From: Thermococcus sp. 21S9 | GTDB lineage: Archaea > Methanobacteriota_B > Thermococci > Thermococcales > Thermococcaceae | Direction: 5' to 3' | DNA: 64,000 bases | Assembly (NCBI RefSeq): GCF_012027635.1 | Contig: NZ_SNUS01000001.1 | Location: 682,001 to 746,000 of the forward strand | Shown here: positions 3,001 through 28,009 of the stretch, one piece after another | How the letters are laid out: every line of letters begins with the position of its first letter | Position numbering within the stretch: position 1 is the first letter of the stretch | Notes under the pieces: generated by a model | What the model saw: the letters and a program-made list of their open reading frames with translations, nothing else | What the model was told of the DNA's origin: nothing | The model's database searches: none | Translations under genes and position numbers: made by a program

Positions 3001-3229
3001 CCTTTCCGTATTCCTTGACGAGAACCCTAATCCTCTCGGCAACGCCCGGCGGGCCTACGAGGCTCTCAACACGGCCGGCCATGTCGGTTGCCTGGGGAAC
3101 CTCAACGTCGAGACTGGGGTCCTTCCCCTGAGAGCGGGCTTTCCTTGCTATCTCATAGGCCCTGTCAATTTCTCGCTGAAGTGATTCGAAGTAAGCCTTC
3201 ATCTCGGGTGAGTAGAGCTCCTCTCCCAT
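1..3229 (-). CDS. polC: DNA polymerase D large subunit DP2 (3' end beyond the window)
   Basis: Catalytic large subunit of the archaeal replicative polymerase PolD, which works with DP1 encoded directly upstream. About 1076 residues are visible and the frame is open to the left edge, so the C-terminus is missing. The ATG at 3229 lies directly after the DP1 stop. The start MGEELYSPEMKAYFESLQ is typical. Two zinc-binding CPxC clusters lie near residues 713 and 740. The catalytic NCDGDEDAVMLL motif is near residue 959. In some Pyrococcus DP2 proteins an intein sits before the Cys of this motif (recalled); here the site is uninterrupted. Residues about 280-313 form a short Glu/Lys/Ser-rich linker that looks variable. 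Transcribed with orc1 and polB, away from the origin. Confidence 0.97.
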   Translation of the reverse strand, partial: MGEELYSPEMKAYFESLQREIDRAYEIARKARSQGKDPSLDVEVPQATDMAGRVESLVGPPGVAERIRVLVKEYGKELAALKVVDEIIEGKFGDLGSKEKYAEQAVRTALAILTEGIVSAPLEGIADVKIKRNTWADNSEYLALYYAGPIRSSGGTAQALSVLVGDYVRKKLGLDRFKPSEEHIERMVEEIDLYHRAVTRLQYHPEADEVRLAMRNIPIEITGEETDKVEVSHRNVPGVETNHLRGGAILVLAEGVLQKAKKLVKYIDKMGVEGWDWIKEFVEAKEKGKSSEESKADESKAEDSGAREEVAEKVEKGFYYELYERFRANIAPNKKYTKEIIGGRPLFAEPSENGGFRLRYGRSRVSGFATWSVNPATMLILDEFIAIGTQMKTERPGKGCIVTPATTVEGPIVKLKDGSVIRVDDYETALKVRNDLDEILYVGDALINFGDFVENNQTLLPANYAEEWWIQELAKAIEELYEVELKPFSDNPREAVEEVAEYLEIDPDFLEGLLMDPLRVRPSVELAIHLSKVLDIPFHPYYTLYWNTLNPEEVEELQRALLNAQIEWGEFRKLKFARRIILENGPKIKRYLELLGLPHRLERTEDRRKVIVVDYPWSSALLTPLGNLEWEFKAKPFFTVIDIINENNPIKLRDRGISWIGARMGRPEKAKERKMKPPVQVLFPIGLAGGQSRDIKKAAEEGKTARVEIAFFKCPKCGHTGPEHLCPVCGTRKELLWHCPKCNVDYPESEAKEFGFRCPRCDVELKPYAQREIKPSELLRRAMDNVKVYGIDRLKGVKGMTSGYKMAEPLEKGLLRVKNDVYVFKDGTIRFDATDAPITHFKPKEIGVSVEKLRELGYTHDFEGKSLERDDQIVELKVQDIILSYEAGKYLLKVARFVDDLLEKFYGLPRFYNAEKMEDLIGHLVIGLAPHTSAGIIGRIIGFSDVLVGYAHPYYHAAKRRNCDGDEDAVMLLLDALLNFSKYYLPEKRGGKMDAPLVVTTRLDPREVDSEVHNMDVVRYYPLEFYKATYEMKSPKEIKFIERVEDRLGKPEMYEGIKFTHDTDDIGLGPKMSLYK

Positions 3230-5407
3230 TCAAACCCCCTCGCAGAACTGGTCAAAGCTCACAACGGCCCTCAAGCGGGCCGTCTCAACGTCTATTATCG
3301 GCACACGCGCTGGAGTGGGAATGATGTTCACCATCTTCTGGAACTCAGTCTGGGCCTGCCAGGTTCCGCTGTTGATGACGAAGACTCCGTTGTAAACCCT
3401 GTGCTCCATAACGTGGACGTGGCCGGCCTGGAAGAGGTCCGGAACGCTCTCGATGACGAGCGTGTCCTCAGGGTCGGGAGCTATGGGAACCTTGTTTCCA
3501 AAGGTCGGCGCGAGGTGGCGGAGCTTGAGGAGGTCAACCATCGCCTCAGCGGGTTTGTGGTGCGTTCTCCCGGGGATGAAGTCAACGACGTCCTCTATGC
3601 CCCTTCCGTGGGCGATGAGGAACTCTCTGCCGTGAAGGTTTATCACCGCGGGATTGCTGATGATGACGACGTTCTTGAGCTTGTATATCGGCTTGGCGTA
3701 CTCCTCGTAGAAGCCCGGCTGTGGCAGAGCGGTCCTCGCGGCGTCGTGGTTGCCCGGGCCGATGAACATGGTGATATGGTCAGGAACGTTGCGGAGGAGA
3801 TTGGCCAACGCCTCGTACTGGTCGAAGATGTCTGGAATGGCCAGCTCGTTGTACTGGCCTGGGTAGATACCGACGCCGTCAACGACGTCACCGCCGATTA
3901 TCATGTATTTAATCCTGCTCACGAGCTCCTCCTCGGCCCTGCTGTTGACCTCACCGTTGAGCCACTCGAGGAACTTCTCGAAGGCCTTCTCGCAGAACTT
4001 GTTCGAGCCGACGTGAATGTCGCTCAGCAGAATCGCGTAGACCTTCTCTTCCAGTGGAGGCTTCTGCTTCCTGAACTTTGGCACATCCGGGAGGAAAACG
4101 CGGTTGGCGAAGAAGATTCCCCTACCCGGCTGACCGCGGAAGGCAACGACCGAATCGGGCATTATCGCGTTGTAGGCCTGTGAAGCGTTCTCCCTGTCTC
4201 TGCCAAGGAAGACCTTAACCCGCCCGGTTGCATCTTCCACCTCGAACATGTAGCCCTTCGCCGTTTCGCGCTTGTCGTTGACGAGGCCGATTATCGTGAC
4301 CTCGTCGTCCCGGACGTAGCTCAGCTTCGCGATGTCTATGACCGTCCCGATTTCGGGGTTCTCGCGGAAGATTCTCCGCATCTTCCTGAGCCTCGACTTG
4401 AAGTAGCTCGAATAGGCCTGGATTATTATCTCGCCCTCTTTACTTGAAGCATTCTTGACCTTCGGGGCCTCGAACTTCACGTTCTTGACGTCGAAGGTAA
4501 GCTCCCACTCATCCGGAATCTCCTTCGCGCGGTAGTGGAAGCCCTCCCTGGGCTTTATCACGACGTCTTTGTAGGTGGAGTAGCTCTTCTCACCCTCAAC
4601 GTCTTCTCCGACGTACGCTATTGGAATCCCGTAGTCGCCGTAAACGATTTTGGGCTTCACCCCGTTTCCATTCTCGCCGTTCTCGTAATACTCCTCGCTA
4701 TCGGCGTAGTTTCCGTAGCCGTTGCCGTTCAGGGGCTCGGTTTCCAGTGGAAGTGAGTCCTCGACGACCCCGGTTAGCGACTCATCTGGAGAGCCGATGG
4801 CACCATCCTCGGGTTCCGCAGGTTCAGATGTTCCAGTGGAAACAAAACTCTCTTCCTCTGAAAGCTCGCCGGAAACTGATTCTTCGACAGAATTGGGGGT
4901 AGGAGATTGCTCCAATTCGAGGGCAGTTCCAGTGGAAATCGATGTCTCGCCAACAATTTCGGCAGGTTTAACACTCTCTTCCTCAGAAGGAGTCGTAGAA
5001 ACTTCGCTTTCCACAACATCTCCAGTGGAAATAGAACCCGATGCGTCCTCTGATTCAACGTCTTCAGAAGAAGGAATTTCTTCAGGCTGAGAGGCCATAA
5101 AAGTTTCAGAAACTTTGGTTTTAGCAGATTCGGCGATTTCTTCCAATATTTCCTCACGAGAAGCCTCAAGAGACTCTTCCTCAGAGACCTCAAGGGGGGT
5201 CTGCTCAGTGAGCTCTCCAGTGGAAAAGAGACCCTTCTCAGCGAGAAAGGCCTCGGCTATGGAGGAGTCTATGACGAAGGTCCCCCGAGCTTTGGCGAAC
5301 TTTATCAGCTCCGCCAGAGTGAAGTCCCTCTTGTAGTGGGGTTCGAGGAGGTAGTAGGCAGAAGGAGTTATCAGGTAGTTGTTCTTGATTAAATCCTCAA
5401 TCAGCAT
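3230..5407 (-). CDS. polB: DNA polymerase D small subunit DP1 (Mre11-like 3'-5' exonuclease)
   Basis: Proofreading and assembly subunit of PolD, 725 aa. The N-terminal helical region (about 1-60) is followed by a long acidic Ser/Glu/Pro linker (about 60-270), then an OB-like domain (about 335-445) and a calcineurin-like phosphoesterase domain. All metal motifs are present: SDIHVG (about 457), GGDVVDG (about 505), GNHD (about 550), AHGRG (about 597) and GHVHV (about 661), so the exonuclease should be active. The ATG overlaps the orc1 stop by one base (TGATG) and polC follows without a gap, so the three genes form one operon. The odd part is the linker: tracts FSTG, ISTG, ISTG, VSTG and LPLET are each encoded by an ORB core (4741-5227), so origin-type repeats lie inside the gene. 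Confidence 0.97.
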   Translation of the reverse strand: MLIEDLIKNNYLITPSAYYLLEPHYKRDFTLAELIKFAKARGTFVIDSSIAEAFLAEKGLFSTGELTEQTPLEVSEEESLEASREEILEEIAESAKTKVSETFMASQPEEIPSSEDVESEDASGSISTGDVVESEVSTTPSEEESVKPAEIVGETSISTGTALELEQSPTPNSVEESVSGELSEEESFVSTGTSEPAEPEDGAIGSPDESLTGVVEDSLPLETEPLNGNGYGNYADSEEYYENGENGNGVKPKIVYGDYGIPIAYVGEDVEGEKSYSTYKDVVIKPREGFHYRAKEIPDEWELTFDVKNVKFEAPKVKNASSKEGEIIIQAYSSYFKSRLRKMRRIFRENPEIGTVIDIAKLSYVRDDEVTIIGLVNDKRETAKGYMFEVEDATGRVKVFLGRDRENASQAYNAIMPDSVVAFRGQPGRGIFFANRVFLPDVPKFRKQKPPLEEKVYAILLSDIHVGSNKFCEKAFEKFLEWLNGEVNSRAEEELVSRIKYMIIGGDVVDGVGIYPGQYNELAIPDIFDQYEALANLLRNVPDHITMFIGPGNHDAARTALPQPGFYEEYAKPIYKLKNVVIISNPAVINLHGREFLIAHGRGIEDVVDFIPGRTHHKPAEAMVDLLKLRHLAPTFGNKVPIAPDPEDTLVIESVPDLFQAGHVHVMEHRVYNGVFVINSGTWQAQTEFQKMVNIIPTPARVPIIDVETARLRAVVSFDQFCEGV
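4741..5227 (+). repeat. five mini-ORB repeats inside the polB linker
   Basis: Cores TTCCAGTGGAA, or one base short of it, lie at 4741-4753, 4831-4851, 4927-4938, 5020-5031 and 5216-5227, all in the same plus-strand orientation at intervals of roughly 90-195 bases. The copy at 4831 keeps the adjoining AAACAAAACTCT block and matches the strong origin ORB at 8060 in 19 of 21 positions, lacking only the G-run. A weaker core (TTCCAGTGGA) lies further into the gene at 4049-4058. They are read in frame as STG or PLE inside the acidic linker of DP1. Confidence 0.85.
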
Positions 5408-6660
5408 CAGAACAACCTCCTCTGCTTGGAGAGGGTGAGGGTGAGCAGGCTCCTAACCTGCTCGTCGTGGCGGTAAATGTTCTTCACCATGTAGGGGGTG
5501 ACGTTTAGCCTTATCTCCTTGGTCCTGCCGTAGCGCCCCTTGCTCACGACCTTGGCGTTGATTATGCCGAGCATGTCGAGCTCGTTGATTAAATCGCTCA
5601 CGCGCCTCTGGGTTAACGGCTCGACGTCGAGATGGTCGCAGAGGGACTTGTAAACGGAGTAAACGTCGCCGGTGTTGGCCGGTAGCTCACCGTTCTCGTC
5701 GAGCATGACTATCGCGTAGAGGAGGACCTTCGAGTGGAGCGGGAGGGTCTTTATGACTTCCTCCATCGTGTCCTGCTCAATCTTCTCCTGTGCCTTCCAG
5801 ACGTGCCTTTCGGTTACTTTGCTCGCCCCCTCGCGCTCCGCTATTTCACCAGCGACGCGGAGCAAATCCAGGGCCCTCCTCGCGTCGCCGTGCTCGCGAG
5901 CGGCCAAAGCGGCACAGAGTGGCACTACCGCATCGTCGAGAACGCCCTCGTAGAAGGCCTCCTTTGCGCGTTGCATGAGAATGTCCCGAAGCTGGTTGGC
6001 GTCGTAGGGCGGGAAAACGACTTCCTCCTCACTCAAACTTGACAGAACGCGGGCGTCGAGATACTCTTTGAACTTGAGGTCGTTTGAGATGCCGATTATG
6101 CTGACCTTCGCTTTTGAGAGTTCCGTGTTTATCCTCGTGAGGGAGTAGAGTATGTCATCCCCGCTCTTCTTGATGAGCTTGTCTATCTCGTCCAGAACGA
6201 TGATTACAAAGCGCTCCTTCGCGTCTATAACCTCTTTCAGCTTGGCGTAGACCTCATCGGTCGGCCAGCCGACGAGGGGAACCTCCACACCACTTTCAGC
6301 CTTGAAGTGGTTGACTATCCTCGCGAGAACGCGGTAGTGGGTGTCGACTATCTCGCAGTTGATGTAGATGACCTCGACGGGAATGTTGTACTTCTCGGAT
6401 ATCTTCTTGAGTTCCTCGGTTACAAACTTCACCGTCACGGTTTTACCCGTTCCAGTCTTGCCGTAGACGAAGACGTTCGAGGGCGTTTCACCCCTTAAAA
6501 CCGGAACGAGAATATGTGCCAGCTCGTCAATCTGCTCATGCCTGTGAGGGAGTTCCTTTGGCGTGTAGCTGTGCCTCAGGACTTCCTTGTTCTTGAAAAT
6601 CTTCTTGGCGTGGAGGTACTTCTCGAATATCGACGTCAGGTAGTCGTCCTTGTCCCCCAT
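5407..6660 (-). CDS. cdc6: Orc1/Cdc6 origin-recognition AAA+ ATPase
   Basis: Origin-binding initiator and MCM loader, 417 aa from the ATG at 6660. Walker A GKTGTGKT lies near residues 64-71, Walker B IIVLDEIDKL near 148-158, sensor-1 IGISNDLKF follows, and a C-terminal winged helix (about 320-417) contains the RRVSDLINELDMLG stretch that contacts ORB DNA in homologues. Earlier starts (ATG 6669, GTG 6675) are possible; 6660 is preferred because GGTGGAG then sits about nine bases upstream. First gene of an operon with polB and polC. The upstream 250 bases carry a repeated motif (6719-6767) and mini-ORBs, which suggests autoregulation. Family members bind the ORBs found 1.1-1.5 kb away. Confidence 0.97.
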   Translation of the reverse strand: MGDKDDYLTSIFEKYLHAKKIFKNKEVLRHSYTPKELPHRHEQIDELAHILVPVLRGETPSNVFVYGKTGTGKTVTVKFVTEELKKISEKYNIPVEVIYINCEIVDTHYRVLARIVNHFKAESGVEVPLVGWPTDEVYAKLKEVIDAKERFVIIVLDEIDKLIKKSGDDILYSLTRINTELSKAKVSIIGISNDLKFKEYLDARVLSSLSEEEVVFPPYDANQLRDILMQRAKEAFYEGVLDDAVVPLCAALAAREHGDARRALDLLRVAGEIAEREGASKVTERHVWKAQEKIEQDTMEEVIKTLPLHSKVLLYAIVMLDENGELPANTGDVYSVYKSLCDHLDVEPLTQRRVSDLINELDMLGIINAKVVSKGRYGRTKEIRLNVTPYMVKNIYRHDEQVRSLLTLTLSKQRRLF

Positions 6661-6718
6661 GGCTCCCATCTCCACCGGAAATCATACTCTCACGCCGTAT
6701 TACCGCCACAAACATGCG

Positions 6719-6767
6719 GATAGGATACACCATTTTGGCAAGATGTGTGATAGGAATTCGCATTTTG
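6719..6767. promoter_or_regulatory. direct repeat GATAGGA-N5-CATTTTG upstream of orc1
   Basis: Two copies of GATAGGA, five free bases, then CATTTTG start at 6719 and 6749, exactly 30 bases apart (about three helical turns). They lie 60-110 bases upstream of the orc1 start. Possible operator or initiator site; no known motif recognised. Confidence 0.45.
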
Positions 6768-6805
6768 TTCAAACATCTCAATCAATCTTTGCACATATTC
6801 CCAAA

Positions 6806-6818
6806 TCTCCACTGGAAG
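6806..6818. promoter_or_regulatory. mini-ORB in the orc1 upstream region
   Basis: TCTCCACTGGAAG, one mismatch from the ORB core. A second half-site, CAGTGGAAA, follows about 20 bases later (6828-6836). Both lie in the non-coding 6661-6921 stretch between orc1 and the next gene, which otherwise holds only the orc1 promoter and the direct repeat. Confidence 0.6.
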
Positions 6819-6921
6819 CACCGGATACAGTGGAAAGCATAGCAAGTGTGGGGTCTGGGTTTATATGCCTTGTTGAACAGGTGGATGTAAAAGGGATACA
6901 GAATAAAGAAGGGAGTTACCC

Positions 6922-7521
6922 TTAGAGGTAACCCCTATCCGGCTCTTCGGGGAGAACCTCGGCGAGAAGGGCCAAAGCCTCGTTCTTGGGCATTCCCACC
7001 CGGGAGATGAGAAAGTTGAGAAGCTCTTCCCTGCTCGCACCCTTGCGGAGCCTCTCATAGACCATCGCGAGCACACGCTCCTTGAGCAGGGCCTCGAACT
7101 CTTCCTCAAGGTGGAGCGCCGAAACGGCTGAGAGCAGACCAACGAGAAGGGCCGAGAGCGCGTCGTTGAACTCGGCCTTGCCGAGATTTGAAGTGTCGAG
7201 GTCAACAGCCAGGTAAACGTCGTCGTTCATGCCCATAAGGATGAACTTCATAAGGTTAACATCTGCGTTCAGCTTGAGGAGTGCATGGTAGACTTTAAGT
7301 TTCTCGTCCTTGGTCATGGAAAACGTTTCAAGGCCCATCGGGGCCAACAGCCGTATGAAGCCGTCCCCGAACGAGAGAAGCAGGGTGAAGGGCATCTTGG
7401 GGTGCTCCGCAACGTAGAGGTCCGGTTCAAGTTGCTTAACTTCCCAGGGCAGGTCCACGATGTCGTTGGCATCGTCCTTGCCTGAGCGCAACCAGTCGAG
7501 AACAACATCCCTAATCTCCAC
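6922..7521 (-). CDS. conserved protein of probable YbjN/CesT-like fold
   Basis: About 199 aa with no catalytic motif. It has the alternating strand/helix pattern of YbjN/type III chaperone-like proteins: FIRLLAPMGLE, then a helix with LLKLNADVNLMKFILMG, then DDVYLAVDLDTSNL and a long helix. I recall similar small proteins beside orc1 in Thermococcales but know no function. The GTG at 7521 is chosen because GGTGG lies five bases upstream; TTG 7533 and GTG 7530 also fit the frame. The mini-ORB 7515-7526 overlaps this start, so initiator binding at the origin edge could shut the gene off. Transcribed away from the origin towards orc1. Function unknown. Confidence 0.8.
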   Translation of the reverse strand: MEIRDVVLDWLRSGKDDANDIVDLPWEVKQLEPDLYVAEHPKMPFTLLLSFGDGFIRLLAPMGLETFSMTKDEKLKVYHALLKLNADVNLMKFILMGMNDDVYLAVDLDTSNLGKAEFNDALSALLVGLLSAVSALHLEEEFEALLKERVLAMVYERLRKGASREELLNFLISRVGMPKNEALALLAEVLPEEPDRGYL

Positions 7522-7773
7522 TGGAACCACCAACTGAAATACGGCGTTGGTGAATTAATGGTTTGCCCTTCCAAAGGAAACGGGAAAGCTAAATGCACAG
7601 GAATGTACATAAAATTTTGCATTTGGAAAGACTAAATTAATTAGGTCTTACGATTTCCACTGAAAGAGAAATGACCAAAAGTGCACACCAAAACAGGGAC
7701 ATTGATGAACATAGTAGTCCACGATAGTTAAACGGACATATTTTCAAAACCCGCTAAATTAAATAGAACGTAT

Positions 7774-7801
7774 CCCCCCCAGAGTTTTGTTTCCAGTGGA
7801 G
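7774..7801 (-). promoter_or_regulatory. origin recognition box 1
   Basis: On the minus strand: TCCACTGGAAACAAAACTCT followed by seven G. It has the complete ORB layout of dyad core, A-rich spacer and G-run that Orc1/Cdc6 winged helix and AAA+ domains contact in homologues. Confidence 0.93.
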
Positions 7802-8059
7802 CGGGCTTTTGGAGCTTCCCATAGAAGACCGGTTTAGTGTTGACAAAAAGCTCCCATTTCTCTTATCGGTGCCGGTTTTTATATCTTTCTATGAACGAAT
7901 GACCAAATCAATGGGAATGAAACATGGAGATTTTAGACCATCTAATAAAAATCTTCGGCAATTCATTGAACGATTTAACAGCTACGTACTTAAACAATTT
8001 CGCTGACTCCCTTTTACCTTCAACCACACTGTCAAAACCGTCCGTTTTCCGAAAGTGGG

Positions 8060-8086
8060 TTCCAGTGGAAATGAAACTCTGGGGGG
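8060..8086 (+). promoter_or_regulatory. origin recognition box 2
   Basis: TTCCAGTGGAAATGAAACTCT followed by six G: core dyad, A-rich spacer and G-run, in the opposite orientation to box 1 about 260 bases away. The AT-rich block 7825-8010 lies between the two boxes. Confidence 0.93.
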
Positions 8087-8105
8087 TCTTTTCGATGAGC
8101 ATCGA

Positions 8106-8130
8106 AAAAGACCTTTGTTTCCACTGGAAA
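8106..8130 (-). promoter_or_regulatory. origin recognition box 3, inverted to box 2
   Basis: Minus strand reads TTTCCAGTGGAAACAAAGG then TCTTTTT. It keeps the core and A-rich spacer but has GG instead of a long G-run. Boxes 2 and 3 converge on a 30-base hairpin at about 8085-8113. Confidence 0.85.
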
Positions 8131-8217
8131 AACTGTACCTCGTGGTATCTTGATGACCATTGTTGAATTGTTCTGATTATGGGGCATGTTTTTAAGGTTC
8201 GAGTGGAAACGACGCCC

Positions 8218-9237
8218 ATGCTACCGGTAACCGTTGTGAGGCGACTGCTCCGCGTGAGGGTCAAGGTGAGCAGAAACCGGTTAGTCCAGATAGCCCTCGC
8301 GGTTCTTCTACTGGCAATCGCGTTTGCAACTGCTTTTGCTTACTTTGAGGGCGTTGACTTCTTTACAGCCTTCTACTGGGCCGTCATAACGATGGCGACC
8401 ATAGGCTACGGCGACGTTACGCCGAAGACCGAGGCGGGGAGAATCGTTGCGATGATTGCTTCTGTTGCCGGAATCTCGACTTTCACGGCCCTCGTTTCCC
8501 TTCTGGCCGAGAACTTTATCTCTTCGTCTCTGAGGAGGATGATGGGCATGCACCGGGTTAACTACTCCAACCACTACCTTGTAATCGGGCAGGGGAGTAG
8601 CGTTTCAACCTGCGTTAACGAACTTATCGGGGCAATCGAGCGCGGTGAGCTACGGCTGGCCCCGATTGTCGTGGTCTTTCCCAGCGAGGAGGAGCGCAAG
8701 AAGGTTGAGCTTCCAGAGGAAATAGAGGTCCTCATAGGTGACCCCACCAACAGGGAGACACTCGAACGGGCCCGTGTTGAAAAGGCTTCCCACGTAATCT
8801 TGGCCCTTGAGGACGACTCGAAGGCCGTTTTTGTGACCCTCATGGTGAAGAGAATGTCCAGTGCAAAGGTTCTCGTCGAGGTTCTGAGCGAGGAGAGTGT
8901 TGAGCTCCTTAGGGGTGCCGGTGCGGATAGGGTCATCGTGAGCAGAAGCCTGGCGGGAAGGCTTCTCGCGAGTTCCGTCTTCGAGCCTGAGGTGGTTGAT
9001 GTTATAGACGACATAACGAGTTCGGTCAAGGGCTACGACGTCACCGTGATGGACGGGCGGGACTTCTGGGGCAGGCCGTACATAGAAGCCCTCCGCGAGC
9101 TCAAGGAGACAAAGGACCTGTTTCTCCTGGGTTACTACAAGGATGGCCCTGTTCTCAATCCTCCGCTCGACGAGCCGATTCCTGAGGGTGCCAGACTGAT
9201 AGTTCTGAGGGGCTCCATTTCCACTGGAAAATCTTGA
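8218..9237 (+). CDS. two-TM potassium channel with cytoplasmic RCK (TrkA-N/TrkA-C) domains
   Basis: MthK-like K+ channel, about 339 aa. Two membrane helices (about 22-42 and 72-95) flank the pore loop, whose selectivity filter TIGYGD lies near residues 60-65. A Rossmann-type RCK domain starts around NHYLVIGQGSS, and a TrkA-C domain fills the C-terminus. I start at ATG 8218 because GTTTTTAAGGTTCG (8188-8201) looks like a promoter about 25 bases upstream, giving a leaderless mRNA; ATG 8179 would place that promoter inside the gene. The last codons (SISTGKS) are encoded by a mini-ORB at 9218-9230. It is the first gene right of the origin; replication of this arm is co-directional with its transcription. 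Confidence 0.93.
   Translation: MLPVTVVRRLLRVRVKVSRNRLVQIALAVLLLAIAFATAFAYFEGVDFFTAFYWAVITMATIGYGDVTPKTEAGRIVAMIASVAGISTFTALVSLLAENFISSSLRRMMGMHRVNYSNHYLVIGQGSSVSTCVNELIGAIERGELRLAPIVVVFPSEEERKKVELPEEIEVLIGDPTNRETLERARVEKASHVILALEDDSKAVFVTLMVKRMSSAKVLVEVLSEESVELLRGAGADRVIVSRSLAGRLLASSVFEPEVVDVIDDITSSVKGYDVTVMDGRDFWGRPYIEALRELKETKDLFLLGYYKDGPVLNPPLDEPIPEGARLIVLRGSISTGKS
9218..9230. promoter_or_regulatory. mini-ORB at the end of the K+ channel gene
   Basis: Perfect TTTCCACTGGAAA, followed at about the ORB distance by a GGGGG run (9240-9244), so it may be a complete ORB-like site on the right flank of the origin. It overlaps the stop end of the gene. Confidence 0.7.
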
Positions 9238-9256
9238 GCAGGGGGCCCATCTTCGG

Positions 9257-9419
9257 TAGTTCTCTTTTTTCTGGGCTTTTCAGTAAAATTTGGGCGTTTT
9301 TAAGGTTCGTTTTTCGAAACTGGCGAAAGTCTTAAAAGATTGCCCTTCCGATTTTCCCAGGAAAAGTTATTTAACCCCTGAACTTTACCTCTACTAAGGG
9401 TATTTCCCGGGTGAGTCTC
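9257..9419 (+). promoter_or_regulatory. terminator and radA promoter region
   Basis: A T-run (CTCTTTTTT, 9262-9270) after the channel gene is a likely terminator. GTTTTTAAGGTTCG at 9296-9309 repeats the 14 bases upstream of the channel gene and may be a distal promoter. The proximal radA box is GTTATTTAACC (9366-9376). The ribosome site GGGTGA lies just before ATG 9420. Confidence 0.55.
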
Positions 9420-10478
9420 ATGGCGAAGAAGAAGGTTGAAGAGGTTAAAGAGCTTGAGGAATTCGAGGAGCTTGAAATAGCCGAAAGCTCACCGTCATCG
9501 CCCTCAAAGAAGAAAAAGGAAAAAGAAATCAGAACCCTTGAGGATTTGCCGGGTGTTGGTCCGGCTACTGCTGAGAAGCTTCGCGAGGCCGGCTACGACA
9601 GTATTGAGGCCATAGCAGTTGCTTCACCGCTCGAGCTCAAAGAGATAGCGGGCATAAGCGAAGGCGCCGCGCTCAAGATAATCCAGGCCGCGAGGGAAGC
9701 GGCAAACATCGGAACCTTCATGCGCGCCGACGAGTATATGGAAAAGAGACAGACCATCGGCAAAATTTCCACTGGAAGCAAGAGCCTCGACAAGCTCCTC
9801 GGGGGCGGAATAGAGACGCAGGCCATAACCGAGGTCTTCGGTGAGTTCGGAAGCGGAAAGACCCAGCTCGCGCACACCCTCGCCGTCATGGTCCAGAAGC
9901 CACCTGAGGAAGGTGGCCTCGGCGGTTCGGTGATATGGATTGACACCGAGAACACCTTCAGGCCCGAGAGGATAAGGCAGATAGCCGAGGCTCGCGGTTT
10001 GGACCCCGACGAGACGCTCAAGAACATCTACGTTGCGCGCGCCTTCAACAGCAACCACCAGATGCTTCTCGTCGAGAAAGCCGAGGAAATAATCAAGGAG
10101 AAGGCCTCAACCGATAGGCCAGTTAAGTTGCTCGTCGTTGATTCCCTCATGGCCCACTTCAGGAGCGAGTACGTCGGCAGGGGAACTCTAGCCGAGAGAC
10201 AGCAGAAGCTGGCGAAGCACCTCTCCGACTTACACCGTCTTGCCGACCTCTACGACATAGCGGTCTTCGTGACGAACCAGGTGCAGGCGAAACCGGATGC
10301 CTTCTTCGGCGACCCCACGAGGCCCGTCGGCGGTCACATCTTGGCCCACAGCGCGACGCTCAGAATCTACCTCAGGAAGGGCAAGGCCGGAAAGCGCGTC
10401 GCAAGGCTCATAGACAGCCCGCACCTGCCCGAGGGCGAGGCCGTCTTCAGGATTACCGAGAAGGGAGTTGAGGACTGA
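9420..10478 (+). CDS. radA: RadA recombinase
   Basis: Archaeal RecA/Rad51 strand-exchange protein, 352 aa. An acidic/basic N-terminal tail (1-35) is followed by a helix-hairpin-helix domain (about 37-90, with [13 protein letters not shown]), Walker [10 protein letters not shown] (about 139-147), Walker [12 protein letters not shown] and the L2-loop region with [15 protein letters not shown]. No intein interrupts it. The GTG at 9411 is in frame, but ATG 9420 has GGGTGA at the right distance. A mini-ORB (9766-9778) encodes the ISTG of [16 protein letters not shown], a conserved part of the family, so here the match may be forced by the protein. Neighbour of the origin, as in Pyrococcus. Confidence 0.98.
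9766..9778. promoter_or_regulatory. mini-ORB core inside radA
   Basis: TTTCCACTGGAAG in frame as ISTGS, just before Walker A. It may be coincidental because the residues are conserved in RadA. Confidence 0.4.
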
Positions 10479-10511
10479 GGTTTTCTGACTTCCAATCTTT
10501 TGGGGAGTCTT

Positions 10512-11336
10512 ATGCGCCGGGGCTTTCGCTACCTGCTGAACAGTCTTTTGATTTCTCTCCTCCCCTGGCCCATCCTGTGGTTGATTTCGTTCTCTTATTT
10601 CGGTGGGGATAATACTGAGATTTCCAGAAGCTTTAACTTCACGTGGCTGTTGTCAGCTCTGGCCTCTTTCCTAATAGTCTCGGCCATTCTGGCTTTCAAC
10701 CTCGCAAGGCTCCTTGAGCGGTGGGGCTACTCGAAGAAGGACATTGTGCATCTCCCCGAAATCCTTGACGAGAACTCTGAAAATGTAAACTTCCTGAAGG
10801 CAGTTCGAGAGAGTGTCCATTACCATTTTACCTTCTGGGGTGTCTACGTTACCGTTTCGCCGGTTTACGGTCCGGTTAAATCAGCACTTTTTGTTATCTC
10901 AATTGTCGCTAAGGTTATTCTTTTATCTCCGCTCATGCTTCCTTTCTTCGTTTTAGTTGTTGGTATTCCTGCATTCCTTTATTTTGCCTCTAAGGGCGAA
11001 CTGAACAAAGTTATGGGTCTTTTCGCGTGGATATTCTGGGTTTCTCTTGCTTCTCTTGTTCTACTTGGAATCCTGCGGTTCGTTGCTCTCCACGCCTCGG
11101 TTCCTCGGGGATACTCTGATTTTGGTACTTTTCGCGGTCCGCTCCTGCTCGTAGAGGATTACCCTATTTTCAGGGGCTTGTTCCTCCTTTCCACTCTCGG
11201 TGTTCTATCCGGAATCTCGGGTTACCTCGGTACACGGTATGGTAATCTGTCGCTCCTCGCGTTGCTTGTCATTGGAATCGTGAGTGTTTTCGTTGACGTT
11301 CGTCTTCTTGGAGTCTTGGTGGTAATCGAGTGGTAA
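10512..11336 (+). CDS. multi-pass membrane protein flanking the halocin-like gene
   Basis: Unrecognised integral membrane protein of 274 aa. ATG 10512 is chosen over TTG 10500 because GGGGAG lies five bases upstream. Hydrophobic segments near residues 7-30 and 45-70 are followed by a charged loop (LARLLERWGYSKKDIVHLPEILDENSENVNF), then about five more membrane segments. The protein at 12707-13477 has the same layout and similar stretches (its loop reads VGRLLKKAGYRFEFRELPRVLNEVD), so the two are paralogues around the Cys-rich gene. Possible roles, inferred from position only: export, processing or self-protection for that product. Lower GC and more T-rich codons than radA or nucS point to transfer. 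Confidence 0.75.
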   Translation: MRRGFRYLLNSLLISLLPWPILWLISFSYFGGDNTEISRSFNFTWLLSALASFLIVSAILAFNLARLLERWGYSKKDIVHLPEILDENSENVNFLKAVRESVHYHFTFWGVYVTVSPVYGPVKSALFVISIVAKVILLSPLMLPFFVLVVGIPAFLYFASKGELNKVMGLFAWIFWVSLASLVLLGILRFVALHASVPRGYSDFGTFRGPLLLVEDYPIFRGLFLLSTLGVLSGISGYLGTRYGNLSLLALLVIGIVSVFVDVRLLGVLVVIEW

Positions 11337-11487
11337 AACTCAGAGGCGCATCTGAAGAAATGAACTTCTGTGTTCTCTTGTTCGCTCTTTTACTCTGGCT
11401 TCTTTCGTTTCATTCTCGTCGTTTTGATACTGTTAAAAATTGAAAATCCTACGAAAAAAACGTTATTGAATCTAACTTGTAAAAAGA

Positions 11488-11503
11488 AAAATTTATATAT
11501 GGC
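11488..11503 (+). promoter_or_regulatory. strong promoter of the Cys-rich secreted protein gene
   Basis: GAAAAATTTATATATG is an A-rich BRE followed by TTTATATA. Transcription should begin near 11520, about 20-25 bases before ATG 11544. The AT-rich stretch 11337-11480 upstream holds no gene I can support. Confidence 0.7.
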
Positions 11504-11543
11504 GATTGTCGGCTCTCCTTGACTAACTGGTCGGTTGGTGGCC

Positions 11544-12623
11544 ATGAACTGGAGGAAGACGACGTTTGGAGTCGTTCTGGTCTTCATGGTATTGAGCCTG
11601 CAGTTGATTGCGGCTCCGCAGGCCATGGCCATGAGCACTAACAATGCCAGCGTGACCTTCAGGAGGGCTGTGGTTGCTTGGTACGATGACAAGGGCAAGC
11701 TTCAGATGAACGTCACGTGGGTGAATGCAACATTAAACCTCACTAATTTGACTCATTCTCCCTGTGCTTGCCAGAACGCCAGTTCCTGCGGTGCTTTCAA
11801 CGTGAGCGCTCACCTCAATGTTTCAATAACTGCCCTGTACAACATGACAAGGAAGCATGAACAGTTGTTGTTCATCAAGGTTACTGTTTACAATGCCACC
11901 TTTAACTACACCATATATAACCTTGTTTATAGGGCCGAGAGGAGTCAGTATAATTTTACGTTGATAACTAAAATCCTAACTGACCCGAAAACTGGAAAGT
12001 ACACGGCTTTTGTTACTGGAATGAACATTGCTCCTGATGATAAGAACAGGGCAGTTCCTGTTGGGGATACCGTACTGGTGCTCGGTAACCTTACGCTTTC
12101 TGATTACTATTGGACTCTGAACAAAGTTCTTATGAAGCTTCGCAGGGGTGACGAGACGAGCTGGATTTGGGACAGGAGTGCTTACGAGTTAAGACACCTC
12201 TCACACTTGGTGAAGCTTAAACTACCGGAGTACAATGAAAAAGCAAACTTGGGATATGCTATGGTTATTGATGACTATTCAGCGTGTGTTCATCTCTGCG
12301 ACTTGTCATGTACTGGGCTTTTTACCCTTGCCTGTATAGCCGCGGCAGGAAGTAGTGGGGGAGTGCTCTCATGGATTTGCTTTGCAGGGGGAATTGTATG
12401 CTCGGCTTTTTGTGGCCATATGTGTGGACAAGGCATTAGTAGCATAATTGGAGGGGCATCTTGCTCTATTGCATGTTCAAAAGGACTAGTACTGGCCTGT
12501 AAGAGCCCCTGTGGAATACTGGGAAGCGTTTGTGCAGACGCTTGTGGGGCGGTTTTGGCCCCTATATTTTGTCCCCAATTCTGTGATGCTTTACCCTACA
12601 TCATTAAGGCTTTATTTTCGTGA
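11544..12623 (+). CDS. secreted precursor with halocin C8-like Cys-rich C-terminal domain
   Basis: 359 aa. A signal peptide (about 1-30, ending APQAMA) is followed by an N-terminal part (about 30-235) rich in N-glycosylation sequons, with a small CACQNASSC cluster. The last 112 residues or so hold 16 Cys in a Gly/Ala-rich hydrophobic sequence (ACVHLCDLSC, LSWICFAGGIVCSAFCGHMC, ASCSIACSKG, ADACGAV, CPQFC). Spacing such as C-x7-C-x13-C-x6-C recalls halocin C8, which is also cut from the C-terminus of a larger precursor whose N-terminal part gives immunity. This is pattern recognition, not a search result. ATG 11544 has GGTGG close upstream; GTG 11538 and TTG 11535 are alternatives. Flanked by two paralogous membrane proteins. 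It could instead be a surface adhesin. Confidence 0.7.
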   Translation: MNWRKTTFGVVLVFMVLSLQLIAAPQAMAMSTNNASVTFRRAVVAWYDDKGKLQMNVTWVNATLNLTNLTHSPCACQNASSCGAFNVSAHLNVSITALYNMTRKHEQLLFIKVTVYNATFNYTIYNLVYRAERSQYNFTLITKILTDPKTGKYTAFVTGMNIAPDDKNRAVPVGDTVLVLGNLTLSDYYWTLNKVLMKLRRGDETSWIWDRSAYELRHLSHLVKLKLPEYNEKANLGYAMVIDDYSACVHLCDLSCTGLFTLACIAAAGSSGGVLSWICFAGGIVCSAFCGHMCGQGISSIIGGASCSIACSKGLVLACKSPCGILGSVCADACGAVLAPIFCPQFCDALPYIIKALFS

Positions 12624-12673
12624 TATTTCTTAACTTTTTAAATTTCAATTTTTGAATCTATAAGTAAAGGGGG
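12624..12673 (+). terminator. T-rich end of the Cys-rich gene and promoter of the next
   Basis: TTAACTTTTTAAATTTCAATTTTT contains T-runs typical of archaeal termination. The same stretch offers a TTTTTAAAT box for the following gene. A strong ribosome site AAGGGGG (12667-12673) ends it, seven bases before an ATG at 12681. Confidence 0.4.
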
Positions 12674-12706
12674 ATTTAAAATGAAATTAAAATCGGGAAA
12701 AGACTT

Positions 12707-13477
12707 GTGCTGGAGGCTGTAACGGCTCCTTTGGTAATATGGGCCTTCATATGGGCGTGGTTTTACATTAATCCTCCTCACGATATTAGTCGGGAGAATT
12801 TCAACACCTCCTGGTTGCTGATTACTGTGGTTTCCTATTTTATAACTCTGGTTATTGTTGCTCTCTTTGTTGGAAGACTGCTGAAAAAAGCTGGATACCG
12901 GTTTGAGTTCAGAGAGCTACCAAGGGTTTTAAATGAAGTCGACCCTAAAATCATCGGTGATTCAACGAGGGACATCTTTAACATCGTTGCAATGTGGGGC
13001 GTTTTCAGCACTGCAGTCCTTGCATTCGGGGTTAAGAAAGGGACTATTTTTACCGTTGCTGTTTATCTTGTACTTTCCTCTATTGGACTTTTGCTAATGA
13101 TTTCCATGCTGATATCTGTTTTGGGGACGGCTTTGATACTCTACGAGCTCCTTACCGGAAGACGGCTTTCCCATTCCTTTGAGAAGGCCCTACTGCTCTC
13201 GCTACTCTCCGGCGCTTTTCTTGTCCTTGTTCGTTTAATGTCAGGGTATCCCTGGGCCTTTAACATCACAGTAGTACGGCCACTTTTGAAGGTTTGTACG
13301 GATAATTATCTGTGCAAGAACCTCCTGTTGCTCTCTGCTTTAAACTCTCTGTACGGCCTTGTCGGAATTCTAATCCTACCCAGGAGGAGAAAACTTGGCC
13401 TCTTACTGCTCCTGATTATTGCTCTTGCCATCGCCCCCCTGCTTGTAAAGGTTTTTATCCAACTGCACTCGCTATAG
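12707..13477 (+). CDS. multi-pass membrane protein, paralogue of the one upstream; start apparently frameshifted
   Basis: 256 aa open frame from GTG 12707, with about seven membrane segments and a charged loop after the second, as in 10512-11336. GTG 12707 has no proper ribosome site. The natural start is ATG 12681 after AAGGGGG, but that frame stops after 13 codons. One extra A in the run at 12698-12701 would join the frames and give an N-terminus MKLKSGKRLVLEAVTAP that resembles the paralogue's start. So either a base is missing (sequencing or real mutation) or translation starts late. Role unknown; its position suggests immunity or transport for the Cys-rich product. Confidence 0.7.
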   Translation: MLEAVTAPLVIWAFIWAWFYINPPHDISRENFNTSWLLITVVSYFITLVIVALFVGRLLKKAGYRFEFRELPRVLNEVDPKIIGDSTRDIFNIVAMWGVFSTAVLAFGVKKGTIFTVAVYLVLSSIGLLLMISMLISVLGTALILYELLTGRRLSHSFEKALLLSLLSGAFLVLVRLMSGYPWAFNITVVRPLLKVCTDNYLCKNLLLLSALNSLYGLVGILILPRRRKLGLLLLLIIALAIAPLLVKVFIQLHSL

Positions 13478-13611
13478 TTCTGTCGTTTCTGCACTCCGTC
13501 CGTCTTTGGTTCTCCATTTTGGGGACGTTCCTCTGCGGACTTATCTTCTGATGCTGAAAGATGGTGCTATCTCTTGTAAGCTTTATAAATAACCTCCATC
13601 CACCTTTCTCC

Positions 13612-14361
13612 ATGCCCAAGGTCGAGCTCAGGGAGAATCCGTCTCCAGAGGAAATAAAACTCCTCGTCGATTCGGCCGTTTCCTCCGAAGGAGTGCTTAC
13701 CATATTCGCCCGCTGTCGGGTCCACTACGATGGCAGGGCCAAAAGCGAACTCGGCCCCGGAGACAGGGTGATAATCGTCAAGCCCGACGGCTCTTTCCTG
13801 ATACACCAGAAGGAGAAGCGCGAACCCGTTAACTGGCAGCCGCCGGGGAGTGTGGTTAGGCTGGAGCTCCGCGAAAAGCCGGTTCTCGTCTCGGTCAGGA
13901 GGAAGCCGAGGGAAACGCTGGAGGTCGAGCTTGAGGAGGTCTACTTAATCACGGTCTTCCACGCTGAAGACTACGAGGAGCTCGCTTTGACGGGTAGCGA
14001 GGCGGAAATGGCCGAGCTCATCTTCGAGAAGCCGGAGGTCATAGAGCCCGGCTTTAGGCCCCTCTACCGCGAAAAGCCCATCAAGCACGGCATCGTTGAC
14101 GTGCTCGGCGTTGACAAAGACGGAAACCTCGTCGTTCTCGAGTTGAAGCGCAGGAGGGCGGATTTGCACGCGGTCAGCCAGCTCAAGCGCTACGTCGAAA
14201 CCCTCCGCGAGGAGCACGAGAACGTCCGGGGTATTTTAGTTGCCCCTTCGCTCACCTCCGGTGCCAAAAAACTTCTCGAAAAGGAGGGCCTTGAGTTCAG
14301 GAAGCTCGAACCGCCAAAGAGGGGCAGGAAATCGAAGGGAAGACAGCTCAAGCTGTTTTAA
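13612..14361 (+). CDS. nucS: endonuclease NucS/EndoMS (mismatch-specific)
   Basis: DNA mismatch endonuclease that makes double-strand breaks at mispaired bases, 249 aa. The N-terminal half is the beta-rich dimerisation/DNA-binding domain. The C-terminal RecB-like nuclease has GIVDVLGVDKDGNLVVLELKRRRADL with the Asp and Glu-x-Lys metal residues, followed by the QLKRY helix. The protein ends in RQLKLF, a PCNA-interaction peptide. ATG 13612 is chosen because TTTATAAAT (13582-13590) lies about 25 bases upstream (leaderless) and MPKVELRE matches the family start; an in-frame ATG 13561 would include the promoter. Convergent with, and overlapping by 4 bases, the next gene. Sits close to radA. Confidence 0.95.
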   Translation: MPKVELRENPSPEEIKLLVDSAVSSEGVLTIFARCRVHYDGRAKSELGPGDRVIIVKPDGSFLIHQKEKREPVNWQPPGSVVRLELREKPVLVSVRRKPRETLEVELEEVYLITVFHAEDYEELALTGSEAEMAELIFEKPEVIEPGFRPLYREKPIKHGIVDVLGVDKDGNLVVLELKRRRADLHAVSQLKRYVETLREEHENVRGILVAPSLTSGAKKLLEKEGLEFRKLEPPKRGRKSKGRQLKLF

Positions 14362-14741
14362 CCCATGCTCATCTCGTGCGGGAAGAGCTCCCTAACCCTC
14401 GCCACGAGGATTCCGTCCCTTCTCTCGACCTCCACAACCCGCCCGAGGCCGACCAGCTTAACCTTTGCCCTGCAGACCGTTATTTCCCTCTCGTCGCTCT
14501 CCTCCCAGGGGACCCTCGTCTCAAGCTCTTTGGCCTCTATCAGCTCCGCGAGGAGACCTTCGGTTCCAGTGGAGACGTCGTCAAAGGGGTCGTAGGTGAG
14601 GAACAGCCTGAGGGCCTCGTCTATCGCCTCCTCGATGGCCAAAACGTTCCTCGCGCTCCTGAGCTCTATCGTTCGGTATGGGTTCCTCAAGAGCTCGTCC
14701 AAAACCCGTCTCGCGATTCCGGCTAGAATTACCGCCTCCAT
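14358..14741 (-). CDS. small conserved archaeal protein, probably DUF473
   Basis: 127 aa, no membrane segment or signal. A helical N-terminal half (ILAGIARRVLDELLRNPYRTIELRSARN) is followed by beta strands (ITVCRAKVKLVGLGRVVEVERRDGILVARV). I recall this pattern from DUF473 proteins of euryarchaea, function unknown. The tract DVSTGTEG is encoded by a partial ORB core (TTCCAGTGGA, 14564-14573), as in DP1. Followed nine bases later by the proteasome-chaperone-like gene, whose product precedes it on the same strand, so they are probably cotranscribed. Confidence 0.7.
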   Translation of the reverse strand: MEAVILAGIARRVLDELLRNPYRTIELRSARNVLAIEEAIDEALRLFLTYDPFDDVSTGTEGLLAELIEAKELETRVPWEESDEREITVCRAKVKLVGLGRVVEVERRDGILVARVRELFPHEMSMG

Positions 14742-14750
14742 GCTACCACC

Positions 14751-15476
14751 TCACAGGTAAATGCTCTCGTACTGCTTCATCTCCTTCTTCCTCGCCTGCT
14801 CCATCTGCTCGTGCATCTTCCTGAGCTGTTCCTCAATCATTTCGGCCTCCTTGATGAGCGGTTCCGTCGAGACGTCAATCGGCGTGAGCTTCTTGAGGAC
14901 CTCGATGACGTTGGCAGCGGCCCTCGGGTCGGGTCTGTCTCCAAACGTCTCGCCGAGGAGCACGTAGGCGTTCAACCCTCTCTTCCCGGCCTCCCAGAGG
15001 AGCTTTCCGCTCATCCCCATAATCGAGCCGTACTGGAGTATCTTCGCCCCTGCCTCTTCGAGCTCCCTGTTGAGTTCCTCCCTAGCTCCAACGCCCCACA
15101 CTTCCATCTTCTCCTTGAAGAAGCCTATGCCGATTCCGCCGATGGAGATTACCTTCTCGGCCTTCATCTCGCTGAGGTAGCTTGCCAGTTCCCGCGCTAT
15201 CTCGTTAACGAGCGTCGGGGGGACGTAGACGTCTGCGATGGCCACTATCAGGTTGTCCTTGCCGTAGAAGCGGAGCGGTGGGTTGGGCTTCCCCTCGAGG
15301 ACTATGCTCATCGGCGGAATGAACGGACTCTCGACGTAGCCTATCATCTCCATTCCGAGTTCTTTGGCCAAAAAGTTGCCCGCTATGTGGCCTACTAATC
15401 CTATCCCGGGGTAACCCTCGATGAATATCGGGTTCTTTACCTCCGGCAGGACGAGCTTGACGGGTTTCTCCTCCAT
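14751..15476 (-). CDS. PAC2-family protein, proteasome-assembly-chaperone homologue (PbaB-like)
   Basis: 241 aa, DUF75/PAC2 family. It has the typical opening NPIFIEGYPGIGLVGHIAGNFLAKELGM, the central SIGGIGIGFFKE, then YGSIMGMSGKLLWEAGKRGLNAYVLLGETFGDRPDPRAA and a charged C-terminal helix. Homologues in eukaryotes guide proteasome ring assembly; Pyrococcus PbaB binds proteasome alpha subunits or other clients. ATG 15476 has GGTGGTGAG directly upstream; the longer frame to 15611 lacks such a site. Divergent from the MTA phosphorylase gene. As I recall, P. furiosus has the same order (PbaB homologue beside MTA phosphorylase/PNP, near cdc6). Confidence 0.9.
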   Translation of the reverse strand: MEEKPVKLVLPEVKNPIFIEGYPGIGLVGHIAGNFLAKELGMEMIGYVESPFIPPMSIVLEGKPNPPLRFYGKDNLIVAIADVYVPPTLVNEIARELASYLSEMKAEKVISIGGIGIGFFKEKMEVWGVGAREELNRELEEAGAKILQYGSIMGMSGKLLWEAGKRGLNAYVLLGETFGDRPDPRAAANVIEVLKKLTPIDVSTEPLIKEAEMIEEQLRKMHEQMEQARKKEMKQYESIYL

Positions 15477-15532
15477 CTCACCACCCCCCGGAATATTTAG
15501 TTCCCAAAGGTTATTAAAGTTTCCGCCCTTCG

Positions 15533-15545
15533 TTTCCACTGGAAA
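15533..15545. promoter_or_regulatory. mini-ORB in the pbaB-like/mtnP divergent promoter
   Basis: Perfect TTTCCACTGGAAA. On the minus strand it continues ACGAAGGGCGG, which resembles the ORB spacer and G-rich end. It lies six bases before the mtnP TATA (CTTATATG, 15553-15560) and about 57 bases upstream of the minus-strand gene. Confidence 0.6.
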
Positions 15546-15591
15546 GGCAACCCTTATATGAGTGGAGCGAGCATTTAACACGGTGATGACC

Positions 15592-16365
15592 ATGCCGAGG
15601 ATAGGCATCATAGGTGGTTCCGGGGTTTACGGCGTTTTCGAGCCGAAGGAAACTCTCAAGGTTCACACGCCCTACGGCAGGCCCTCTGCTCCGGTGGAAA
15701 TCGGCGAAATCGAGGGCGTTGAGGTGGCCTTCATACCCAGGCACGGCAAGCACCACGAGTTCCCGCCCCACGAAGTTCCCTACCGTGCGAACATCTGGGC
15801 GCTCAAGGAGCTCGGTGTCGAGCGCGTAATCGGCGTTACGGCAGTTGGCTCGCTCCGCGAGGAGTATAAGCCCGGCGACATAGTGATAACCGACCAGTTC
15901 ATTGACTTCACGAAGAAGCGCGACTACACCTTCTACAACGGCCCGCGCGTGGCCCACGTCTCGATGGCCGACCCCTTCTGCCCCGAGATGAGGAGAATCT
16001 TCTACGAGACAGCAAAAGAGCTCGGCTTTCCGGTCCACGAGAAGGGCACCTACGTCTGCATTGAAGGGCCGAGGTTCTCAACGCGCGCTGAGAGCTTCAT
16101 GTTCAGGCAGTACGCCCACATCATCGGAATGACGCTCGTTCCCGAGATAAACCTGGCCAGGGAGCTCGGAATGTGCTACGCCAACATCGCAACGGTCACC
16201 GACTACGACGTCTGGGCCGACAAGCCTGTGGATGCCCAGGAGGTCCTCAAGGTCATGGCCGAGAACAACTACAAGGTTCAGGAGCTTCTCAAGAGGGCCA
16301 TCCCGAGGATTCCGGAAGAGAGGAAGTGCGGTTGCGCCGATGTGCTGAAGACGATGTTCGTGTGA
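15592..16365 (+). CDS. mtnP: S-methyl-5'-thioadenosine phosphorylase / purine nucleoside phosphorylase
   Basis: Phosphorolysis of methylthioadenosine to adenine and methylthioribose-1-phosphate, 257 aa. Visible family motifs: [11 protein letters not shown] at the start, [33 protein letters not shown], and [13 protein letters not shown] in the substrate pocket. The C-terminal CGC motif ([10 protein letters not shown]) matches the disulfide motif of hyperthermophile MTAP/PNP enzymes. ATG 15592 is preferred: GGTGAT lies five bases before it and the TATA box about 35 bases before. The next gene encodes an MTA/SAH deaminase, so both routes of MTA breakdown sit side by side. Confidence 0.95.
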
Positions 16366-27884: not shown

Positions 27885-28009
27885 TTTAAATTCTCCTCTC
27901 CCCTTTCTCTTCCCATGCTCGGTGGTCGCTTTTGGCTTTGGTGAGGTCCTTCTCTTCTGCACCGCCTTAGCCACGAGCTTCGTTTCCACTGGAAATGGAG
28001 GTGCTTTAA
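27885..28009 (+). promoter_or_regulatory. trpS leader with Trp-containing mini-ORF
   Basis: CTTTAAATT (27884-27892) is a TATA box whose predicted start point is near 27914. A leaderless nine-codon frame begins at ATG 27915 and ends at TGA 27942-27944: M-L-G-G-R-F-W-L-W, with two Trp codons right before the stop. The trpS ATG lies 65 bases further on, with its own GGAGGTG site. Confidence 0.4.
27983..27995. promoter_or_regulatory. mini-ORB upstream of trpS
   Basis: Perfect TTTCCACTGGAAA, 14 bases before the trpS start and about 20 kb from the origin. The minus strand continues ACGAAGCTCG, like the 15533 copy at its first bases. It would lie in the trpS 5' leader RNA. Confidence 0.55.

Follow-up and report, generated by a model that had tools for sequence, protein, structure and literature searches.

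A candidate modular archaeocin precursor cassette with predicted membrane immunity proteins in Thermococcus

The DNA analysed here (the window) is a stretch of 64,000 nucleotides from Thermococcus sp. 21S9 (contig NZ_SNUS01000001.1, positions 682,001 to 746,000), and all coordinates without a locus label refer to it. Between radA and nucS, the window carries three genes: one for a secreted protein with a Cys-rich C-terminus, predicted below to be a toxin precursor, and two for the polytopic membrane proteins that flank it. Homologues of the secreted protein share its N-terminal domain (the N-domain), to which one of about ten C-terminal modules is attached; these modules are hereafter referred to as cores (types A–J). 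The elements of the locus are as follows.

10475..13576, no strand: entire inserted segment (the cassette), about 3.1 kb long, separating radA from nucS and containing three genes only
10512..11336, + strand: P0002, polytopic membrane protein of 274 amino acids, family c1, on a third, divergent branch with its orthologue in locus L036; candidate orphan immunity protein
11492-11499, + strand: TATA element TTTATATA of the precursor gene, common to homologues across core types
11521..11532, + strand: palindrome-like leader GACTAACTGGTC (GACYAACTGGTC), directly 5′ of the ATG; GACCAACTGGTC in many homologues
11544-12623, + strand: precursor open reading frame (ORF), 359 amino acids, secreted protein
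11544..11633, + strand: signal peptide region, residues 1-30, a hydrophobic segment ending in QAMAM and kept in homologues
11634..12272, + strand: conserved carrier or pro N-domain, residues 31-243, beta-rich, with 13 sequons and a mean identity of 0.73
12270..12272, + strand: Asp243, invariant, the final conserved residue ahead of the variable core; candidate processing junction
12273..12620, + strand: type A (A1) Cys-rich core, residues 244-359, with 16 Cys; predicted mature toxin
12707..13477, + strand: P0003, polytopic membrane protein of 256 amino acids, family c1, in the clade that follows all A1 cores; predicted cognate immunity protein

A preliminary description, made from the letters of the DNA, had read the central gene as that of a secreted protein with a glycosylatable N-terminal domain and a Cys-rich C-terminus, and this was borne out. 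A signal-like hydrophobic segment was recognized by inspection at residues ~6-28. Within residues 31-242, 13 N-X-S/T sequons were counted, as compared with 3.0 ± 1.5 in 5000 shuffled sequences, none of which reached 13. The core of 116 residues contains 16 Cys, no sequon and neither Arg nor Glu, while Gly, Ala, Ser, Leu and Ile are abundant; all of the 16 Cys are invariant across nine type-A cores. The TATA box that had been proposed upstream of the gene stands about 45 bases ahead of the ATG and is shared by most homologues. Since this element and the palindrome-like leader (GACCAACTGGTC) are common to most homologues and most core types, a new core would inherit the same expression and secretion signals. 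A scan for sigma-70 promoters and terminators gave chance-level results, and such a scan is not meaningful in archaea.

For the comparison with homologues, 40 neighbourhoods were collected and 42 homologous ORFs were aligned. Three features were found. One is a clear contrast between the two parts of the protein: among 13 homologues picked for their differing cores, the mean pairwise identity is 0.73 in residues 31-243 and 0.12 in residues 244-359, and the drop falls between two invariant residues, Gly237 and Asp243. Another is that the cores, 59-120 residues long with 6-20 Cys, have even Cys counts in 38 of the 39 near-intact cases, as expected if all Cys pair in disulfides. The sole near-intact core with an odd count is that of L057:10486-11205 (type C), which has 7 Cys where its relatives have 8. 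The last feature is that most of the core types show little or no resemblance to one another at the profile level: hhalign comparisons between them were mostly insignificant, and middling probabilities were obtained only for D-J (61%) and E-H (51%). The types were assigned manually and checked by hhalign, because in a BLAST-linked clustering, which was dropped for this reason, types A, B and G had fallen together owing to their Cys-rich composition. A Cys-rich part retained within a larger conserved family had been named in the preliminary description as grounds for giving up the idea of a peptide precursor; the Cys-rich part is instead the one that is exchanged.

The exchange is directly visible at the DNA level. 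The window and L036 (genome G025), both at the radA-nucS site, are ~94-95% identical in the flanks and the N-part and 55% identical in the core, which in L036 is of the A2 subtype. Immediately downstream of its altered core, L036 has an insertion of one additional immunity-type membrane gene, with ~94% identity on either side. The reverse case is provided by L040 and L042, whose cores share 94% DNA identity while their N-parts share only 63%. Several copies are broken precursors or fragments (L040:7073-7894, L042:6296-6999, L044:6381-6665 and L058:6242-6448), which suggests rapid gene decay.

The precursor family was found in 29 of the 115 genomes of the phylum, every one of them belonging to Thermococcaceae (29 of the 94 genomes of this family), with up to five matches per genome when fragments and pseudogenes are included. 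No homologue was found in the viral contigs and plasmid collections searched, which thus give no indication that viruses or plasmids carry the family. The radA-nucS gap is 3140 bp in the window and 37 bp in genomes G022 and G033. In the G022 relative (L077), whose RadA is 99% identical, 346-2418 aligns with 8401-10474 of the window and 2420-4440 with 13577-15600, leaving one base between the two blocks. The cassette is an insertion at a site that is empty in close relatives; genome G057 (L081) retains a remnant of a P0003 relative there. No integrase or transposase gene lies within the 3.1-kb insert, and spread by homologous recombination is therefore the probable route. Cassettes occupy a few fixed chromosomal sites, each of which hosts several core types.

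The genes around the window cassette are radA, nucS, cdc6 and DP1. The motif TTTCCASTGGAA occurs 13 times in the window, both strands counted, against 0.05 expected (4741-15545 and 27983-27995), and is clustered near cdc6/orc1, DP1 and radA. We take it to resemble the origin recognition box of Thermococcales, and the region is presumably a replication origin. Beside another cassette site, that at ileS, VapB/VapC-like small gene pairs (clusters c30/c29) recur (L091:6547-7142 and L099:4906-5474).

The mutual relationship between the core and the neighbouring membrane genes provides a clue to function. The three-gene arrangement that had been pointed out is real, and P0002 and P0003, on the two sides of the precursor, are distant paralogues (26% identity, E=6e-10). 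The model of P0003 by AlphaFold2 (AF2) is all-helical, with a predicted local distance difference test score (pLDDT) of 82. In the homologous loci, the first same-strand gene downstream of the precursor is in most cases a membrane protein gene whose family depends on the core type: A is followed by c1 (12 of 12), C by c38 and/or c41, D by c45 (3 of 4), E by c85, F by c43 and G by c2. The downstream family was shared in 85 of the 115 same-type pairs and in 27 of the 626 different-type pairs, a result reached in none of 5000 permutations; when type A was left out, 19 of the 49 same-type pairs still shared it, again unmatched in 5000 permutations. For core types A, C, D, E and F, loci at different chromosomal positions retain an unchanged partner. 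As the same partner is found at different sites, and several core types at each site, the pairing is not simply a matter of synteny.

The correspondence extends below the level of core types. All seven A1 cores, including that of the window, are followed by one c1 clade, and all five A2 cores by another; identities are 52% and 59% within these clades and 21% between them. At many loci, the other clade is present as a second, orphan gene. Family c1 is also more widespread than the toxin family, occurring in 50 of the 115 genomes as compared with 29. The genome of the window itself carries two c1 genes without a toxin at the thermosome site and one more beside ileS. Such a distribution would be anticipated for immunity genes and for strains that are resistant without being producers.

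The preliminary description had also seen in the window protein a Cys spacing like that of halocin C8 and had suggested a hidden Markov model search of the core. With TIGR04449, the halocin C8-like model of NCBIfam (curated cut-off, 24 bits), neither the whole window precursor nor its core alone gave a match at E≤10, and hhalign between the window core and the type-B cores gave a probability of 8-12%. The candidate identity of this core as a halocin C8 domain was thus rejected, and the precursor, failing the TIGR04449 test, is not filed as a member. The sisters of type B behave differently: six distinct type-B cores match over the full model length with 24.2-49.3 bits (E 7e-13 to 5e-5), all above the cut-off, and in a search with the 29 full-length homologues sharing the window N-domain, 6 exceeded it. 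Core types C, G and H gave no match in this search despite a similar richness in Cys, Gly and Ala; together with type A, they serve as a built-in control showing that composition alone does not produce a match. The halocin C8-like label suits the sister proteins, and the window protein by predicted function only.

Throughout the 115 genomes, TIGR04449 matches nine ORFs, mostly with this N-domain. Three are outside the precursor family, in frames of 264, 264 and 267 amino acids, one of them below the cut-off, and the two that were read have an unrelated N-domain. A second Thermococcus precursor family with TIGR04449 cores (about 261-267 amino acids; L093 2602-3384 and L094 2635-3426) resembles the present one in being secreted, in its C-terminal halocin C8-like core and in adjoining small membrane proteins; it differs in its unrelated N-domain and in not being located at the radA-nucS site. 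In L093:2602-4369 and L094:2635-4748, genes for small membrane proteins and a conserved lipoprotein-like gene lie downstream of this precursor.

Based on these results, we consider that the locus encodes an archaeal bacteriocin (archaeocin) precursor of modular build together with its cognate membrane immunity, with a probability of roughly 80%. The secreted precursor of a C-terminal antimicrobial peptide, as first proposed, is strongly supported by the halocin C8-like domains in the same slot of sister proteins, the hypervariable core and the co-varying membrane protein, and it is very probably a bacteriocin-like weapon used between strains. At the sequence level, the family has the features of a polymorphic toxin-immunity system: a constant N-part with exchangeable C-modules, an adjacent gene that co-varies with them, and orphan partners. 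In the proposed mechanism, the precursor would be exported by Sec, and its N-domain, probably glycosylated outside the cell, would serve as a carrier or pro-domain, maintaining the hydrophobic core in a soluble, inactive state. Folded with its 16 Cys in disulfides, the core would be freed near Asp243 by a secreted protease; secreted proteases that activate archaeal antimicrobial precursors have precedents in HalH4 and HapP (PMC12893001). The freed core may then attack the membrane of related strains that do not have the matching membrane protein. The producer would be protected by the downstream protein of the P0003 family, and the upstream paralogue P0002 may be an orphan immunity gene or a spare one. 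Recombination that swaps a core and its immunity gene behind the constant promoter, signal peptide and N-domain would create new specificities. A broader formulation, which we hold to be probable with somewhat less assurance, sees in the family a single secreted carrier domain for the delivery of about ten disulfide-rich peptide warheads; most of these, the 16-Cys type A among them, would be new families. Each warhead would be neutralized by a separate family of membrane proteins, small or polytopic, and recombination at a few fixed chromosomal sites would exchange the warhead-immunity pairs behind a shared promoter.

Several observations weigh against the archaeocin interpretation. The structure prediction that had been suggested as a check, made with AF2, was informative for only one part of the precursor: the N-domain is beta-rich at residues ~90-240 and partly confident (block pLDDT about 61-92), its last strand (233-242) abutting the core, while the core was modelled as helical at low confidence (pLDDT about 35-56), giving no confident fold for it. 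Foldseek found no significant structural match in the PDB for the full-length precursor model or for the P0003 model. The type-A core gave 16 matches in the phylum, all except short remnants on this N-domain, and this search recognized no relative outside the precursor family. The cassette contains no dedicated protease or exporter. The core-partner pairing is weaker for type B, in which several of the downstream genes are singletons. Finally, the likely start of P0003, ATG 12681 behind a GGGGG motif, is one base out of frame as compared with L036, L033, L041 and L037; a base has apparently been lost in an A-run (12681-12710), leaving GTG 12707 as a fallback start. This loss may be a draft-assembly error or a recent frameshift, and the cognate immunity gene may thus be damaged or mis-sequenced.

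The most serious rival, although an unlikely one, is a surface protein for self/non-self recognition or adhesion, in which the variable C-terminus would be a display domain, the membrane proteins would be receptors or anchors, and no killing would occur. The hypervariable C-terminus, the secretion, the sequons and the paired membrane proteins would fit it as well, and a comparable pairing is known in the VARTIG module of Thermococcales, for which one proposal is similar (PMC8416519). Two findings speak against it: one of the interchangeable core types is a recognized halocin C8-like domain, and membrane genes without a secreted partner are common, which is expected of immunity genes and not of receptors. 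VARTIG resembles the present family in belonging to the same archaeal order and in pairing a secreted, hypervariable protein with membrane proteins, but consists of other, large Ig-domain proteins in which no toxin domain was found (PMC8416519), whereas some members of the window family have a toxin-type domain. As a VARTIG module, the window precursor was rejected: it has no Ig-domain match in Pfam, and its Foldseek search was without a significant match.

A less probable rival is the single-gene layout of halocin C8. Its precursor ProC8 uses Tat and is reported to yield HalI and halocin C8 (HalC8) on maturation, the N-part HalI giving immunity (PMC11509114); given the similar layout, the N-domain might do the same here, the flanking membrane proteins being incidental or aiding export. 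The preliminary description had likewise suggested an immunity role for the N-terminal part. This role is unlikely, since the N-domain is conserved whatever the core type and would not be expected to encode core-specific immunity, while a different core goes with a different family of downstream membrane proteins; the neighbouring membrane proteins are the more likely seat of immunity. A housekeeping role of the core, whether in binding a metal or cofactor or as a structural module of the envelope, suggested by its many conserved Cys, is the least probable of all in view of the patchy presence (29/115 genomes), the core swapping, the pseudogenes, the empty sites and the halocin C8-like alternates.

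In its predicted mode of action, the window precursor thus resembles both the halocin C8 precursor and polymorphic toxins. Like the former, it is an exported protein that ends in a Cys-rich hydrophobic peptide, and its sisters with the same N-domain bear TIGR04449 domains; it differs in its unmatched core, in an N-domain common to about ten core types, and in immunity predicted to reside in separate membrane proteins. With the polymorphic toxin systems of bacteria and archaea, as known from citations of Zhang 2012 and Makarova 2019, it shares a constant N-terminal delivery part, an exchangeable C-terminal toxin, an adjacent specific immunity gene and orphan immunity genes. The differences are that the precursor is small, that the warheads are disulfide-rich peptides rather than nuclease domains, and that the cassette is without a dedicated secretion system. 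Searches of Pfam, NCBIfam and PADLOC gave no family covering the window precursor, and sequence searches of PADLOC, Pfam and the PDB gave nothing convincing.

Our literature searches found no experimentally described bacteriocin-type competition system in Thermococcales; the precursor family itself may have been mentioned earlier (e.g., in the lists of Makarova 2019). If the interpretation is correct, the cassette would represent such a system in this order, and it would be a source of heat-stable disulfide peptides for which the contrasts of A1 versus A2 core and A1 versus A2 immunity provide built-in controls of specificity. It would also give a function to many unannotated membrane proteins, with family c1 alone present in 50 of the 115 genomes. 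The means by which archaea of a single species kill and tolerate one another would then become directly testable in the genetically tractable Thermococcus.
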